Shown here one piece after another: positions 797 through 43,373 of a stretch of DNA of 43,373 nt. The notes under the pieces are model-generated. The model saw nothing but the letters and a program-made list of their open reading frames with translations. It did not search any database and was not told the origin of the DNA. The position numbers and the translations under genes are program-made. The first letter of the stretch is position 1. Every line of letters begins with the position of its first letter. The DNA comes from a virus: positions 1-43,373 of IMG/VR virus record IMGVR_UViG_3300027749_004522; one strand, given 5' to 3'.

Positions 797-1315
797 ATGG
801 CAAAAGAAGTATTAGAGAAACAAATGATCTTTACCAGCAAACTGGTAGATGAATCAACAGATAAAATAAATGATGGTATCGTCATCAAAAGATACCAAAA
901 TCCTTGGCTAAAATCTGAAGTAGGACTAAGAAGAGCAGGTGTATCTTTTAGAATGTCTCCTGAAGAACAAGAAGAATATATAAAGTGTGCTTTGGATGTA
1001 CATTACTTTACAGAACAATATTGTAAAGTAAAAACTGAAGATGGATCAGTAGGTCAAATTAAATTGAGAGAATACCAAAAAGAAATATTAGATAATTTTG
1101 TAAATAGCAGATTTAACATTTTAATGGCAAGTCGTCAAGTGGGTAAATGTTTTTCGTTCAATACTTTATGTAGTATTGAGAAAGACGGAGTACAAATTGA
1201 TTTTCGTATTGGAAAACTGTACTACTATGTGTTAAAGAAAGAAAGAAATTTAACTTTATTAGAAAAAACTAAGATTAAATTATATGATTTTTTATTTTAC
1301 TTAGAAAACATCTAA
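797..1315 (+). CDS. Large terminase N-extein plus N-terminal half of a split intein
   Basis: Residues 1-117 are the start of a T4 gp17-type packaging ATPase: an adenine-motif-like LREYQKEIL segment, then the start of Walker A (ILMASRQVGK). At residue 118 (Cys, codon 1148-1150) the sequence becomes an intein block A (CFSFNTLCSI, then a DG turn), and it stops 55 residues later. The tail after residue about 140 is rich in Lys/Glu and may dimerise with the complementary intein half. The rest of the terminase is encoded from 2335 as a separate polypeptide whose extein resumes with TISASIF. Joining at GK|T restores ASRQVGKT, as in T4 gp17. Intein-family logic says Cys1 performs the N-S acyl shift. 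This protein alone cannot be an active ATPase. Confidence 0.9.
   Translation: MAKEVLEKQMIFTSKLVDESTDKINDGIVIKRYQNPWLKSEVGLRRAGVSFRMSPEEQEEYIKCALDVHYFTEQYCKVKTEDGSVGQIKLREYQKEILDNFVNSRFNILMASRQVGKCFSFNTLCSIEKDGVQIDFRIGKLYYYVLKKERNLTLLEKTKIKLYDFLFYLENI
1148..1312 (+). mobile_element. Split-intein N-half (55 residues)
   Basis: It starts at Cys1, directly after the Walker A Gly-Lys, and contains only block A. Blocks B, F and G are all in the C-half. This is an atypically early split, like the metagenomic AceL-TerL intein (about 25 residues in its N-half) and unlike Npu DnaE (about 100 residues). Confidence 0.85.
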
Positions 1316-1341
1316 CCTATCTGAAAGGAACCCATAACTTT

Positions 1342-1353
1342 TTAATATATAAA
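1342..1353 (+). promoter_or_regulatory. Late-type box before the homing endonuclease
   Basis: TTAATATATAAA 14 bases upstream of the endonuclease start, placing a possible promoter between the two terminase halves. Confidence 0.45.
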
Positions 1354-1367
1354 AAAATAAAATTTAT

Positions 1368-2342
1368 ATGATGGAAATTAATGATAATAGAGAGACAGTA
1401 ACTTGTAGAATATGTGGTGAGCAATGTAAGAGAATATATGGAAAGCATCTAAAATTCAAACACAATAATATGACAACTGATGAATATAAAAATCTATACA
1501 CTGGTGCACCAATAATGGCATTATCAGATAGAGAGAGAACTACAATAAATAGTGGTAAACACATGAAAGATGATAAATATAAAAAAATGTTTTCTGATAT
1601 GTTTAAAGGTGAAAAAAATCCTAATCACAGAAATAATACAACTGAACTAGAACGAAAAAGTAGAAGTCCATTTTCAAAAGATTTTATAAAATATAATGGT
1701 ATGGAGAATGTTAAGGAACATATAAGTAATTTTGCGAAACTGGCAATCAAAGATAGAATTTCAGATACTACAATAAAATATTATATAAATAAAGGATATT
1801 CACTAGAAGATTCAGAAAAACTTCTTAAAGTAAGACAAACAACATTCTCACTTGAGAAGTGTATCGAAAAATATGGATATGATGAAGGTTATAAAAAGTG
1901 GACTGATCGACAAGAAAAATGGTTAAACAATTATCAAAAAATTAATTATAGTAAAATTAGTCAAGAGATGTTTATATCAATATATAAAGAACTAATAAAT
2001 GTGGGATTTTTTGATAAGGTCTATTTTGCAAAGCTTGATAAAAATGATAATATACATGAGAGTAAGAATAACTACGAGTATAGATTGAAATTAAATAAAT
2101 CATATATACTACCAGATTTTTTTATACCTAGTCTAAATTTAATTTTAGAATTTGATGGAACTTATTATCATAGAGACACAACCGAGAATAAAGAAAGGGA
2201 AAAAACAAGAGACGAGAATATTATAAATTCAGGTTATAAAGTTTTACATATAAGTGAAAAAGAATATAAAGACAATAAAGAATTAACTGTTTTAAAAGTA
2301 GTTAATTATATACTAAAAACAAAACAATTAAAAAATGTTTAA
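1368..2342 (+). CDS. EDxHD (Vsr-like) homing endonuclease inside the fractured terminase gene
   Basis: A 324-residue free-standing homing endonuclease. Residues about 12-35 form a CxxC...HxxxxH zinc finger of the MucR-like type (CRICGEQC, KHLKFKH). A NUMOD-like KGEKNPNHRN segment follows near residue 80. The middle carries the LEKCIEKYG-x-x-x-G-x-KW-x-x-RQEKW signature typical of this family. The C-terminal nuclease core shows E/D...D...EFDGTYYH...RD, corresponding to the EDxHD motif of I-Bth0305I-like enzymes related to Vsr. A weak ATG 3 bases inside (1371) is an equally good start. Its stop overlaps the start of the terminase C-half (ATGTTTAA), suggesting translational coupling. In known fractured genes this family sits between the halves of a split intein gene and is thought to spread the arrangement. 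Confidence 0.9.
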   Translation: MMEINDNRETVTCRICGEQCKRIYGKHLKFKHNNMTTDEYKNLYTGAPIMALSDRERTTINSGKHMKDDKYKKMFSDMFKGEKNPNHRNNTTELERKSRSPFSKDFIKYNGMENVKEHISNFAKLAIKDRISDTTIKYYINKGYSLEDSEKLLKVRQTTFSLEKCIEKYGYDEGYKKWTDRQEKWLNNYQKINYSKISQEMFISIYKELINVGFFDKVYFAKLDKNDNIHESKNNYEYRLKLNKSYILPDFFIPSLNLILEFDGTYYHRDTTENKEREKTRDENIINSGYKVLHISEKEYKDNKELTVLKVVNYILKTKQLKNV

Positions 2343-2781
2343 ATTTTTTAAAAAGATATTAATATTTATTATTAATAGTTTAATAGAGTTAATAGAAAAA
2401 TATGAATATAGAGATAGATATCTTGATGAAGATGATATATCCAAGAAGATATTAAATTCTATCAACTTAATGAATGTAAAGGTTAAAACTGATACTGGTT
2501 ATCAGTTAACAACTGATATACATATAACACAACCTTATAAACATTATAAAATAAAAACTAAAGAATTTGAACTATTGTGTGCAGATAATCATATATTATT
2601 TGATAAGAATTTCAGGGAAGTATTTACAAAAGATTTAAAAAAAGGTGATCTAATACAGACAGAAAGTGGTATACAAGAAGTGTTATCACTAACTTCAGAA
2701 AATTTTAAGTCATCAATGTTTGATTTAACTGTTGATCATCCAAACCATAGATTTTACACAAATGGAATTTTATCACACAAT
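2335..2781 (+). mobile_element. Split-intein C-half (149 residues)
   Basis: It runs from the ATG to the terminal Asn of SHN (codon 2779-2781). It holds blocks B, F and G, with the catalytic penultimate His and terminal Asn. The first about 45 residues exceed the usual C-intein length and may clamp the N-half. Confidence 0.85.
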
Positions 2782-4578
2782 ACAATCTCAGCATCAATTT
2801 TCATGTTACACACAATTCTATTTAGTAATGATAAAAATATAATGATTGTTGCCAATAAAGGAGATACTGCAGTTGAAATTGTAGATAAGATTAAATCTAT
2901 CTACTCGCTATTACCATTCTTTTTAAAACCAGGTATTAAAACCTGGAATCAAAAGTCACTAACATTTGAAAATGGATGTAGAATAAAAACATCAGCAAGA
3001 TCTAAAACACCAGCAATCGGTTTTACCATTGACGTACTTTATCTTGATGAGTTTGCACACATCCCTTCAAATATTATTGAACCTTACTATACTGCAGCTT
3101 ATCCAACTGTATCTGCGGTACAAAACTCAAAGATTATTATTACATCAACTCCAAATGGTATGAATTTATTTCATAAATTACTTACTGATGCAGAAAGGCC
3201 AGATGGAGATCCACTCAAAAATAACTATAAAGCAATGCGTGTTTACTGGCATCAAGTACCAGGAAGATTTGTTACATATTTGAGATTAAATGATCATAGA
3301 TTATATGAACATGGTGTAACAAAAGAACAGATATTTAGTGGAATTAGAGAAAATTATCCAGAAAATATAACAAAAACACATATGGGATTCAATTCAGATT
3401 TCCAAAAAGACATCATATCTGTATTTAACAATGAGAGATGTACCGATGAAGATGTTAAGAATTTAACATTCATTGATTCAAAAGGATTTGAAGTACCACT
3501 AAGAGCCATTGGTGAAATGACAACTTGGAAAGAAGAAGCAGTAAAGGATATTGGTGGTGAGGATGCGTTCAATCAGGAATATGGACTAAGATTTATAAAC
3601 TCAAGTAAGTCCTTACTTAATGAAGCGATAATCGATAGTCTTTTAAATAATAAGAAAAATTATAAATTTGAAGAGATATTTGAATTTGAAAATAAACTTA
3701 GATTTAGTTATAAGGACTTGAGATGGATCGATGATGATGATATATTCATACCAATGAATAGAAAAAATGAGAAGATTATACTATCAGTCGATATCGCAGA
3801 AGGTTTAGGACAAGATTACTCAATTATAAACATATTTAAAATATCTAAAAAAGATATGGATACAATTGAATCACAAAGACTAGCATATAAATCAGTTACA
3901 GACTTTTTTAGATTAGAACAAATTGGTTTATACAGAAGTAATTTAGTTTCAGTTAAACAATTAGCAGAGTTACTTTATATTCTAGCATTTGAATATTTAA
4001 ACCCAGATAATGTTAAAATAGTTTTAGAGCTAAATAACTATGGAAATACTTTATTAGCAGAGTTACCACACGTTTTTGATGGTAATAATCAGTATGGTTC
4101 ATCTATTTTTTTTAGATACAAACATAGAGCAGATGCAACTGAAGAAAAAGTCGGATTAAAAGTAGGTGAAAATAAAAATTTGATGGTCAAAGATTACCAG
4201 GATTTAATGATCTCTAAAGGATTTTCTATAAATAATGAAGAAACTGTTAGAGAGATTACAACATTTGTTAAACATACAACGACTGCAGGGAATACTAGGT
4301 ATGCCGCTGATGTTGGACATGACGACTGTGTGATGACTATTGTAAATGCGACATCTGCTTTTCAAAAAAATGATTTTAAAGAGATGGTTGAAGATACTTT
4401 ACAAAAAGATTCATCATTTAAGATTTATGTGGAAGACTGTTTAAAGAATCTTGAATTTACCGAGACTGTTGATTATACACAATTACTAAATGTTAGAAGA
4501 AAAATATTAAATAGAAATAAAACTGTTAGTGAGTCTAATACGACTGGTATAAATTGGTTTAATAGTAGTGGTAAATAA
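2335..4578 (+). CDS. C-terminal half of split intein plus large terminase C-extein
   Basis: Residues 1-149 are intein and 150-747 are terminase. The intein part has a hydrophobic/charged N-terminal extension (about residues 1-45), a block B-like segment (CADNH, with Ala where Thr is usual in TxxH), DLKKGD, block F (VDHPNHRFYTNG) and block G ending SHN, followed by Thr+1. The terminase part has Walker B (VLYLDEFAHIP), the ATPase coupling motif TSTPNG and a C-terminal RNase H-like nuclease with acidic residues in SVDIAEGLGQDYS, ELNNYGN and GHDDCVM. All have direct counterparts in T4 gp17. Splicing with the 797-1315 product would give a 715-residue terminase with a complete Walker A. The terminase motor translocates DNA into the prohead and cuts the concatemer. 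Confidence 0.92.
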   Translation: MFKFFKKILIFIINSLIELIEKYEYRDRYLDEDDISKKILNSINLMNVKVKTDTGYQLTTDIHITQPYKHYKIKTKEFELLCADNHILFDKNFREVFTKDLKKGDLIQTESGIQEVLSLTSENFKSSMFDLTVDHPNHRFYTNGILSHNTISASIFMLHTILFSNDKNIMIVANKGDTAVEIVDKIKSIYSLLPFFLKPGIKTWNQKSLTFENGCRIKTSARSKTPAIGFTIDVLYLDEFAHIPSNIIEPYYTAAYPTVSAVQNSKIIITSTPNGMNLFHKLLTDAERPDGDPLKNNYKAMRVYWHQVPGRFVTYLRLNDHRLYEHGVTKEQIFSGIRENYPENITKTHMGFNSDFQKDIISVFNNERCTDEDVKNLTFIDSKGFEVPLRAIGEMTTWKEEAVKDIGGEDAFNQEYGLRFINSSKSLLNEAIIDSLLNNKKNYKFEEIFEFENKLRFSYKDLRWIDDDDIFIPMNRKNEKIILSVDIAEGLGQDYSIINIFKISKKDMDTIESQRLAYKSVTDFFRLEQIGLYRSNLVSVKQLAELLYILAFEYLNPDNVKIVLELNNYGNTLLAELPHVFDGNNQYGSSIFFRYKHRADATEEKVGLKVGENKNLMVKDYQDLMISKGFSINNEETVREITTFVKHTTTAGNTRYAADVGHDDCVMTIVNATSAFQKNDFKEMVEDTLQKDSSFKIYVEDCLKNLEFTETVDYTQLLNVRRKILNRNKTVSESNTTGINWFNSSGK

Positions 4579-35002: not shown

Positions 35003-35067
35003 CATTTTTGTATATATACATAGAATAATTTTAGATGGCATTATGCTATCTAAAAAAAAAATTATAT

Positions 35068-35928
35068 ATGTCAAGAACAAAAAGAACAAACATTCAAAAC
35101 ATTACTAACTACAACACGGCAGTAAATCTACTAAGAGAATTTTTTACAAAAAAAGGATTTGTAGAAATCGCAACACAACCAAATTTAACGATTCTATCAG
35201 CATGTGAAAATCCATTCTCAGTATCAACATACAACTATAATGGTGAGGTATGGCCCTTACCACAGACAGGTCAAATGATTTTAGAGGAAGTTTTACTATC
35301 AAATCCAGAATTACCAGGATGCTTCTGTATCTCTACATCTTATAGAGCAGAAAAAGATCCAATCCCTGGAAGACACGAACTTATTTTCCCAATGTTTGAA
35401 TTTGAATCTAAAGGAACTTTAAAAGATCTTAAAGTATTAGAAGATGAATTGTTAAACTTTTTAGGATTTGGTTCACCAGTTGAAATCGACTACAATGAAA
35501 TCTGTGAAGAGTACGGTGGAGTTGAAATCTTAGAAGATGAACACGAAGCTAGAATGTGGAAAGAATTAGGACATTGTGTTTCTTTACAAAATTTCCCTGA
35601 AAGAACTTCCCCATTTTGGAATATGAAACATAAAGCAAATGGAATCTTTAATAAAGTAGATGTTATTTTATTCGGACAAGAAACAATTGGTTCTGCAGAA
35701 AGAAGTTGTGATAAAGAAGAAATGAGACATACATTTGAAACTATTTCAGAAGGTGGATATGCGGCTAAATTATTTGAATTGTTTGGTGAAGAAAGAGTTA
35801 CTAAAGAATTAGATGATTTCTTAAACTTTGATTTCTTCCCAAGATATGGTGCAGGAATTGGTTTAACAAGATTATCAAGAGCGATGGAGTTACTTCAAAA
35901 ACAAGAACAGCTTGAATTACAAGACTAA
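35068..35928 (+). CDS. Minimal class II AsnRS-like catalytic domain
   Basis: A 286-residue class II synthetase core without an N-terminal anticodon-binding OB domain. Motif 2 is CISTSYRAEKDPIPGRHE followed by FPMFEFE, and motif 3 is YGAGIGLTRLSRAME. The order matches AsnRS/AspRS. The start at MSRTKRTN is preferred, 11 codons inside the longest frame. Stand-alone AsnRS-like cores in archaea (asparagine-synthetase-related proteins) make asparagine, so it may act on free aspartate rather than charge tRNA. It could also aminoacylate a tRNA or protein. Followed by a strong terminator. Confidence 0.82.
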   Translation: MSRTKRTNIQNITNYNTAVNLLREFFTKKGFVEIATQPNLTILSACENPFSVSTYNYNGEVWPLPQTGQMILEEVLLSNPELPGCFCISTSYRAEKDPIPGRHELIFPMFEFESKGTLKDLKVLEDELLNFLGFGSPVEIDYNEICEEYGGVEILEDEHEARMWKELGHCVSLQNFPERTSPFWNMKHKANGIFNKVDVILFGQETIGSAERSCDKEEMRHTFETISEGGYAAKLFELFGEERVTKELDDFLNFDFFPRYGAGIGLTRLSRAMELLQKQEQLELQD

Positions 35929-42837: not shown

Positions 42838-42839
42838 AT

Positions 42840-42869
42840 TTGGTAGATTAAAAATTAGTTGTATTTTTG
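42840..42869 (+). promoter_or_regulatory. Host-type promoter for the tRNA-like RNA
   Basis: TTG at 42840-42842, 19 bases, then TATTTTTG at 42862-42869: the best-spaced Bacteroidota-type promoter in the window. It ends 12 bases before the RNA. Confidence 0.65.
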
Positions 42870-42881
42870 TAGAAATAAAAC

Positions 42882-42947
42882 GGCTTTGTATGGTTAGTCT
42901 AAGGCCTCTAAAACCAGAAGACGAGGGATCATTCCCCTCCAGAGCCA
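42882..42947 (+). tRNA. tRNA-like RNA, D-arm reduced, possible CTA anticodon
   Basis: A 66-base RNA. The acceptor stem GGCTTTG/CAGAGCC and T-stem GAGGG/CCCTC pair well, with discriminator A and no encoded CCA. The T-loop ATCATTC lacks the usual T54 and A58. The middle is short: about 17 bases stand where 24 are normal between acceptor and anticodon loop, so no D-arm can form properly. Spacing to the T-arm best fits loop CTCTAAA (42906-42912), giving anticodon CTA, but that placement leaves only two GC stem pairs. An alternative hairpin pairs GTCT at 42897-42900 with AGAC at 42919-42922. It may be a suppressor-type or decoy tRNA, or a decaying tRNA gene. Confidence 0.5.
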
Positions 42948-42955
42948 CAAAAAAT

Positions 42956-42967
42956 TTAATATATAAA
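42956..42967 (+). promoter_or_regulatory. Late-type box
   Basis: TTTAATATATAA directly before the gene at 42969. Confidence 0.35.
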
Positions 42968-42968
42968 G

Positions 42969-43154
42969 ATGTTAGGTTGGTTTAAAAAACTATTTAAAAC
43001 AAACGTTGAAAAACGTTTTATTGATGATTATGAATTTAACTCAATAAGAAAAGAAAAAGAAGATGAATTAAATCGAATACTGGAAAAGATTTCAGAAAAA
43101 GGTATGAAAAGTCTAACAAAAGAAGAACAACAATTTTTAAAAAATAATAAATAA
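42969..43154 (+). CDS. Small protein with DUF6576-like C-terminus, 61 residues
   Basis: Begins with an amphipathic helix (MLGWFKKLFKTNVEKRF) and ends with RILEKISEKGMKSLTKEEQQFL. The latter is the same short motif found at the end of the membrane protein at 8199 and in many Bacteroidota proteins. Function unknown. The start lies 21 bases after the tRNA-like RNA. Confidence 0.6.
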   Translation: MLGWFKKLFKTNVEKRFIDDYEFNSIRKEKEDELNRILEKISEKGMKSLTKEEQQFLKNNK

Positions 43155-43156
43155 TT

Positions 43157-43373
43157 ATGAAGAACACTTAGATTAACAAAGAACAAACAAAATTAGTAGT
43201 TATCACTAGAAGTGATTTAACTCCGGGTTATCAAGCCCAACAATCAGTACATAGCTGTGCAGACTTCGCAGAGCAATTTCCACAATCCTTTAACGAGTGG
43301 AAAACTACATCTAATTCTATCATCTGTTTACAAGTAAACAATGAAAAAGAATTAAATGACTTATACTTAAAGT
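43157..43373 (+). CDS. PTH2-family peptidyl-tRNA hydrolase with in-frame TAG at codon 5 (partial)
   Basis: After ATG AAG AAC ACT comes TAG (43169-43171), and the same frame then runs open to the window edge. It reads KLVVITRSDLTPGYQAQQSVHS, as in PTH2-type peptidyl-tRNA hydrolases (conserved K-L-V-V-x-x-R-x-DL and the later HxxxDF). No ATG, GTG or TTG restart lies between the TAG and the conserved domain; only an ATT follows directly. So translation must use a non-canonical start, read through TAG, or the gene is dead. The enzyme frees tRNA from stalled peptidyl-tRNA. The coding pattern after the stop shows no decay. Confidence 0.6.

Follow-up and report, generated by a model that had tools for sequence, protein, structure and literature searches.

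The last gene of the window, a 43,373-base phage fragment from IMG/VR, encodes a PTH2-like protein whose frame is interrupted shortly after its ATG by an in-frame amber codon (TAG). The interruption is confirmed and far from chance. This TAG is very probably a programmed and conserved lock on a phage PTH2-like enzyme and its HD partner, opened by a phage tRNA with a CUA anticodon. The argument comes from comparison with related phages, in which the amber is conserved, is only ever TAG, has no other start behind it, is followed by preserved coding and is linked to CUA tRNAs, amber and tRNA being jointly absent in two phages. We infer from this comparison that the amber is read through, that the CUA tRNA is the agent of read-through and that the arrangement serves as a lock.

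The window locus reads, 5′ to 3′, LeuRS-like gene, promoter-like site, tRNA-like RNA, DUF6576 ORF and PTH2-like gene (Table 1). The initial annotation had described the latter as an ATG, three codons, a TAG and a clean domain lacking a proper restart codon, and the sequence bears this out: TAG is followed by ATT (at 43172), AAC and AAA, no ATG, GTG or TTG is found between TAG and the domain, and the frame remains open up to the contig end (43373). The domain is thus truncated by the end of the contig and not by mutation; its relatives run on to ~300 aa. The RNA that had been placed about 210 bases upstream of the gene is present, but the DUF6576 ORF intervenes. It had also been called promoter-equipped. 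A site with the pattern TTTG-N19-TATTTTTG, which we take to be the Bacteroidota-type promoter consensus, does precede it and is kept as TTTGG...TAT[TC]TTTG in three relatives (L002, L003, L004), although the pattern by itself occurs at chance level (2 found versus 1.73 expected in the whole window). A scan for sigma-70 promoters gave no matches above chance.

Table 1. Features of the window (positions in the 43,373-base fragment).
Feature	Position	Strand	Basis
Terminase large-subunit gene, apparently interrupted (short first piece, endonuclease-like ORF at 1368-2342, frame with an intein-like stretch)	797-4578		Judged by eye
Ordinary tRNA, CAT anticodon	23672-23746		Sole ARAGORN call in the window
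Short AsnRS-like protein	35035-35928		
Compact leucyl-tRNA-synthetase-like protein, 418 aa	41032-42288	+	TIGR00396 leuS_bact and class I aaRS Pfam models
Promoter-like site TTTG-N19-TATTTTTG	42839-42869	+	Pattern match
tRNA-like RNA without D arm, CTA at the anticodon position, candidate amber suppressor tRNA	42882-42947	+	Acceptor and T stems, loop
Small ORF, 61 aa, DUF6576	42969-43154	+	Pfam PF20216, 46.9 bits; kept in L002-L004
PTH2-like gene leader ATG AAG AAC ACT	43157-43168	+	Sequence; leader of similar length in 47/52 clusters
Conserved in-frame amber TAG (proposed lock)	43169-43171	+	Sequence, relatives
PTH2-like domain, incomplete at the contig end	43172-43373	+	Pfam PTH2, 25.7 bits; relatives; AF2 model of L003

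An alignment query identified 74 IMG/VR loci of the family, which collapsed to 52 clusters at 90% identity. In 47 of these an ATG is followed by 0-8 codons, TAG and then directly the domain. Neither TAA nor TGA occupies the place of the leader stop in any cluster (0/52). The five clusters lacking an amber leader are L078, in which no leader was seen, and L080, L087, L088 and L089, which have ordinary starts. The sequence ACT-TAG-ATT is kept in all six close relatives found with a read-through protein, one of them a 430-kb contig whose protein is 65% identical. Initiation codons (ATG, GTG or TTG) are missing between TAG and domain in 46 of the 47 amber-leader clusters, the exception being an ATG in L046. 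Identities among the amber-leader proteins, which come from independent assemblies and isolated phages, range down to ~36% with an intact domain. The residue after TAG is isoleucine in 31 of the 47 leaders (ATT, ATA or ATC) and valine in 8; the remaining codons are AAC, AGC, ACA, ACG, AAA, CTT or, in one only, ATG. A purine 3′ of an amber favours its suppression. Of the 47 leaders, 46 have a purine directly after TAG, compared with 56 of 104 TAGs at gene ends (Fisher p 5e-9) and 821 of 1310 first bases of codon 4 (p 2e-8), both p values being optimistic as the sequences are related. The leaders of stand-alone and fused HD genes have a purine at this position in 17 of 21 cases.

The start of the PTH2-like gene was read in 25 named phage records. 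Fourteen have the amber leader (LR745206, LR756502, LR756504, LR756501, LR756500, pT24, XacN1, RAS14, ME3, GAP32, XbC2, Arash, BF and LR756511), and the isolated phages among them include pT24, XacN1, RAS14, GAP32, XbC2, ME3, Arash and BF. TAG is codon 3 of the gene in pT24, while ORF364 of XacN1 begins ATG AAG TAG and has its annotated start after the amber; depositors began the gene after the amber or split it in pT24, XacN1, GAP32 and XbC2. An SD-like stretch is spaced for the ATG preceding TAG in five of the seven SD-using phages listed (clear in XacN1, RAS14, Arash, BF and LR756511, partial in GAP32 and weak in ME3). Six records show no in-frame leader amber (LR745208, Lak-A2, RaK2, Hallingskeid, Aeromonas phage 65 and Myxococcus phage Mx1), and the last two also lack a CUA tRNA within ~2 kb. 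Five mycobacteriophages (Myrna, I3, ScoobyDoobyDoo, Phabba and Alice) have ATG or GTG, TAG and then the annotated GTG start. An SD-like stretch is suitably spaced for this GTG right after TAG, so no lock is needed there. A CUA tRNA, sometimes annotated as tRNA-Ser or tRNA-Arg, is found at most ~700 bases downstream of the PTH2 GTG start in the mycobacteriophage loci L091, L092, L179, L180 and L181.

Ochre-type anticodons were noticed at two other loci. A TTA-anticodon tRNA lies at 5408-5484 of L015 (LR745208), shortly after the start of the amber-less PTH2-like gene region. In L090 (Lak-A2) the PTH2-like frame at ~2950-3000 has no ATG, GTG or TTG before the domain, ATG AAT TAG occurs in another frame and a TTA-anticodon tRNA is found 0.7 kb upstream. 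The search found no member of the family in Atu_ph07, which has a UCA suppressor and would be an opal version. It found none in DLP5 either, a relative of the suppressor-tRNA phage Summit, so the family cannot account for all suppressor tRNAs of phages. One scan of genome contigs with a single PTH2-like protein revealed no cellular relatives.

TAG is an ordinary stop codon in these genomes. It terminates 4 of 51 ORFs in the window, with at most 10 open codons beyond. Among long ORFs (at least 150 aa) it ends 3/39 in the window, 15/239 in XacN1, 45/274 in G004, 15/172 in pT24, 8/114 in G003 and 15/246 in G012, that is 6-16% of the stops in each of the six records. Global recoding (genetic code 15) is thus rejected for the window and the five large phages, and the lock would be gene-specific. 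A scan of the same six records for M-x-TAG gave TAG, TAA and TGA matches in similar numbers (7 TAG, 10 TGA and 4 TAA in XacN1). The PTH2-like gene was the only conserved gene recognised in it, with a filter that missed the known copies of XacN1, G003 and the window because an ATG lay close by or the contig stopped. A second filter, applied to GAP32, RaK2 and Hallingskeid, did not recover the copy known in GAP32; the scans are not exhaustive.

Cloverleaf tRNAs with a CUA anticodon, predicted to decode UAG and hence candidate suppressors, occur in the related phages. ARAGORN found one within ~6 kb of the gene, in the flanks fetched, for 34 of the 52 PTH2-like clusters. All 35 copies share the strand of the gene, and among the 41 tRNA-bearing loci there are 26 in which no other tRNA lies closer to the gene than the CUA tRNA; the second-commonest anticodon near the gene, CAT, is found in 21/52. 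A relaxed scan detected CUA candidates on the same strand in 37/52 clusters versus 2/52 on the opposite strand and 1/52 in shuffled sequences. The fetched stretch of 18 clusters had no ARAGORN CUA tRNA, yet the relaxed scan finds one in L016, L017 and L030. Over whole records, CUA tRNAs number 1 of 27 tRNAs in GAP32, 1 of 3 in pT24, 1 of 62 in G012 and 4 of 56 in XacN1 (two per terminal repeat). In RaK2 and Hallingskeid, whose gene has no amber, none was found in the whole record (0/8 and 0/7). ARAGORN also found none among 28 tRNAs in 394 of the 430 kb of G004, where a non-standard CUA candidate lies 2.2 kb upstream of the PTH2-like gene. The four clusters with ordinary starts (L080, L087, L088, L089) lack the leader amber and have a CUA tRNA nearby all the same. 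A mismatch between positions 31 and 39, which gives anticodon stems of 4 bp, occurs in 8/35 CUA tRNAs and 10/212 other tRNAs.

The window's own RNA is less regular. Its description as tRNA-like with a CTA anticodon stands as regards the acceptor stem (7 bp), the T stem (5 bp) and the 7-base loop C-T-CTA-A-A, but a C.A mismatch closes the anticodon loop, no D arm is recognisable and the Rfam tRNA score (22.9 bits) is under the gathering score of 29. ARAGORN did not call it, and it folds only slightly more stably than shuffled sequences (z -1.5). The same RNA is found at the same place in L003, and related forms occupy that place in L002 and L004, where two acceptor pairs read as broken. L006 has a form of it 1.26 kb upstream of the PTH2-like gene, and in L059 a similar RNA without D arm adjoins the gene. 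The candidate suppressor function of this RNA is the weakest link of the case, and another CUA tRNA may exist in the remainder of the phage genome. The proposal that TAG gates PTH2 through this RNA therefore divides: conservation of TAG and its co-occurrence with CUA tRNAs speak for the gating, but the RNA lacking a D arm is only a candidate for the agent.

The compact LeuRS-like protein encoded 0.6 kb upstream of the RNA scores 367 bits with TIGR00396 leuS_bact, under the cut-off of 548, and has half the length of the model. It is 94-96% identical in L002-L006, the tRNA-like RNA following 0.6-1 kb downstream in each case. As its gene is conserved upstream of the RNA in each of these relatives, enzyme and RNA could form a private synthetase-tRNA pair, in which the enzyme would charge the RNA and the RNA would be the key to the lock in the window's clade, although we regard this as unlikely. 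A compact LeuRS-like protein upstream of a tRNA-like RNA was seen in the window, L002-L006 and L168, and phage G012 has a 61% relative of the protein.

The product had been assigned to PTH2. The Pfam PTH2 (PF01981) match lies above the cut-off of 23 bits in the window, but the protein belongs to a divergent PTH2-like family and is not a canonical PTH2. The same model gives 32.0 bits for L014, 30.8 for L013 and 21.3, below the cut-off, for full-length L003; the family matches 2zv3 by sequence with E 1.6e-7. An EPD motif replaces the usual second PTH2 motif. L003 is 302 aa long, and its AlphaFold2 model (pLDDT 88.2) has a predicted PTH2 fold: residues 5-110 superpose on 3erj (AF2095; PTH2) with Z 15.3 and rmsd 2.0 over 106 aligned residues. 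Residues 112-302 of the model best match the HD part of 3wfr, a ‘tRNA processing enzyme’ that we take to be an A-adding nucleotidyltransferase (Z 12.9, rmsd 3.5, 161 aligned, 15% identity). With the invariant residues H136, H186, D187 and D231 of the HD motif (H...HD), the modelled L003 has a tRNA nucleotidyltransferase-type phosphohydrolase fold and motif; the HD sequence profile match is weak (E 0.02 only). The two domains are fused (~300 aa) in the window's clade and in pT24, the window being cut before the HD domain, while in other phages a separate neighbouring gene encodes the HD protein. By sequence and model, the PTH2-HD product is a putative tRNA-acting enzyme with predicted peptidyl-tRNA hydrolase activity.

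The HD partner takes part in the same arrangement. Among 41 HD loci (33 clusters), 32 clusters carry an amber in at least one of the two genes, HD or neighbouring PTH2-like, or in their fusion, with L212 as the exception; in 15 of the 33, by our count, the two genes are separate and both begin with a leader amber. The HD gene amber of GAP32, XbC2 and BF is located inside the domain at ~codon 46. Most HD domains have a conserved in-domain Met soon after the leader amber, a possible start, which RAS14 lacks. Some phages have canonical PTH2 alongside the PTH2-like family, and the canonical genes of five amber-family phages have neither an amber (0/5) nor a CUA tRNA within ~3 kb (0/5).

In the mechanism that we propose, ribosomes would start at the ATG and meet TAG 0-8 codons on (3 in the window), where RF1 would stop most of them. 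Once the phage CUA tRNA is transcribed, matured and charged, TAG would be read as an amino acid, some ribosomes would pass and the enzyme would be made; TAG would stay a normal stop for other genes.

This reading was weighed against four others. On a lone contig, a sequencing error, a nonsense mutation or a dying gene would look just like the window, with a stop near the start, and the first two had been raised as simpler alternatives. They are excluded for practical purposes by the recurrence of the same TAG in 47/52 clusters and 14/25 named records, across independent assemblies and isolated phages of low identity with the domain intact. Genome-wide use of genetic code 15 by the phage, with TAG as an ordinary sense codon, is extremely improbable in view of the share of TAG among the stops of the window and the five large records. 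Jumbo phages with code 15 and CTA tRNAs are described, according to the accessible text of PMC13037316, and the 735-kb LR756501, whose domain contains a further TAG at a position that is Gln in its relatives, may genuinely use that code.

Alternatively, TAG could end a leader minigene of 1-9 codons and be followed by a non-AUG start (ATT) for the enzyme, with peptidyl-tRNA drop-off sensing hydrolase activity. Very short minigenes do cause a drop-off that Pth relieves, 31/47 leaders have ATT, ATA or ATC after TAG, and the mycobacteriophages have a genuine GTG start there. An ATT start, which had been offered as another simple alternative, nevertheless fails as a general account since the codon after TAG varies: several clusters have AAC, AGC, ACA or AAA there, and a single one has ATG. 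Moreover, SD spacing fits the ATG before TAG in 5/7 phages, a restart at the in-domain amber of GAP32, XbC2 and BF cannot yield a whole HD domain, and nearby CUA tRNAs are not predicted; we consider the minigene very improbable. Read-through by a host near-cognate tRNA or through limiting RF1, the phage CUA tRNA having other purposes, agrees with the purine that nearly always follows the leader TAG, unlike gene-end TAGs, and with the 18/52 loci whose fetched stretch lacks an ARAGORN CUA tRNA. It does not account for the tight same-strand linkage of CUA tRNA and gene or for the joint absence of amber and CUA tRNA in RaK2 and Hallingskeid, and it is quite improbable too.

The purpose of a lock opened by the phage CUA tRNA may be feed-forward control, in which the enzyme, a tRNA hydrolase that could do harm, would stay off as long as the phage's tRNA set is inactive: made too early, it would harm tRNAs, so its synthesis would require transcription as one key and a functional phage tRNA as the other. 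Negative feedback, in which the enzyme would act on the suppressor or on other peptidyl-tRNAs and so limit suppression in a loop, is possible but rather unlikely. Feed-forward control is favoured, though the data separate neither from the other. More broadly, we think it fairly likely that this is a widespread natural two-key circuit, in which giant phages of several host phyla silence a PTH2-HD tRNA-surveillance module behind an amber, in many cases one for each gene, and let it be made only with the help of their own CUA tRNA, and that this circuit chiefly explains the presence of amber suppressor tRNAs in jumbo phages without recoding.

Phage suppressor tRNAs without genome recoding have lacked a known target, and the amber-leader PTH2-like gene offers them a candidate job. 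In the accessible parts of the respective papers, XacN1 is reported to have CUA tRNAs for which read-through of 18 amber stops gave no target (PMC5852040), no target was found for the suppressor tRNA of Summit (PMC9022506), and Atu_ph07 has a UCA tRNA and two PTHs (PMC6102473); further background is found in the accessible text of PMC11210395, PMC10879173 and PMC13092985. The suppressor tRNAs of XacN1 now gain a candidate target in ORF364. The open-licence literature searched contains no description of a phage PTH2 gene interrupted by an amber, an absence that is weak evidence, and the accessible text of PMC7824862 has neither ‘stop codon’ nor ‘suppressor’. If true, the lock would be a natural case of gene-specific control through a dedicated suppressor tRNA, and it would account for the public phage genes annotated from after the amber or split (pT24, XacN1, GAP32, XbC2). 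It is directly testable in isolated laboratory phages.

The proposed circuit has partial counterparts in known systems. With the code-15 phages (crAss-like, Lak, jumbo) it would share a phage-encoded CUA tRNA reading TAG during infection, but here TAG is a normal genomic stop that also stands right at the beginning of a single gene or pair of genes. In pyrrolysine and selenocysteine decoding a dedicated tRNA reads a stop codon in specific genes, a likeness that ends with the position of the amber, here in a leader with variable neighbouring residues, where it looks regulatory and not like the site of an indispensable special residue. Autoregulation of prfB, the RF2 gene, relies on an early in-frame stop that ties synthesis of a translation factor to the state of termination. 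Control of synthesis by the termination state is what the lock would have in common with it, whereas no frameshift is involved here and amber and tRNA replace UGA and RF2. PTH2 itself occurs in archaea, eukaryotes and jumbo phages, according to the accessible text of PMC7824862; the present proteins share its fold and sequence (AF2095, 2zv3) and differ as a divergent family with the EPD motif, an HD partner and an amber leader. A further parallel is synthetic: a feed-forward leak dampener engineered in E. coli with a suppressor tRNA, as described in the accessible part of PMC7969014, likewise combines a silencing nonsense codon with a suppressor tRNA as second key, in a form that here is apparently natural.
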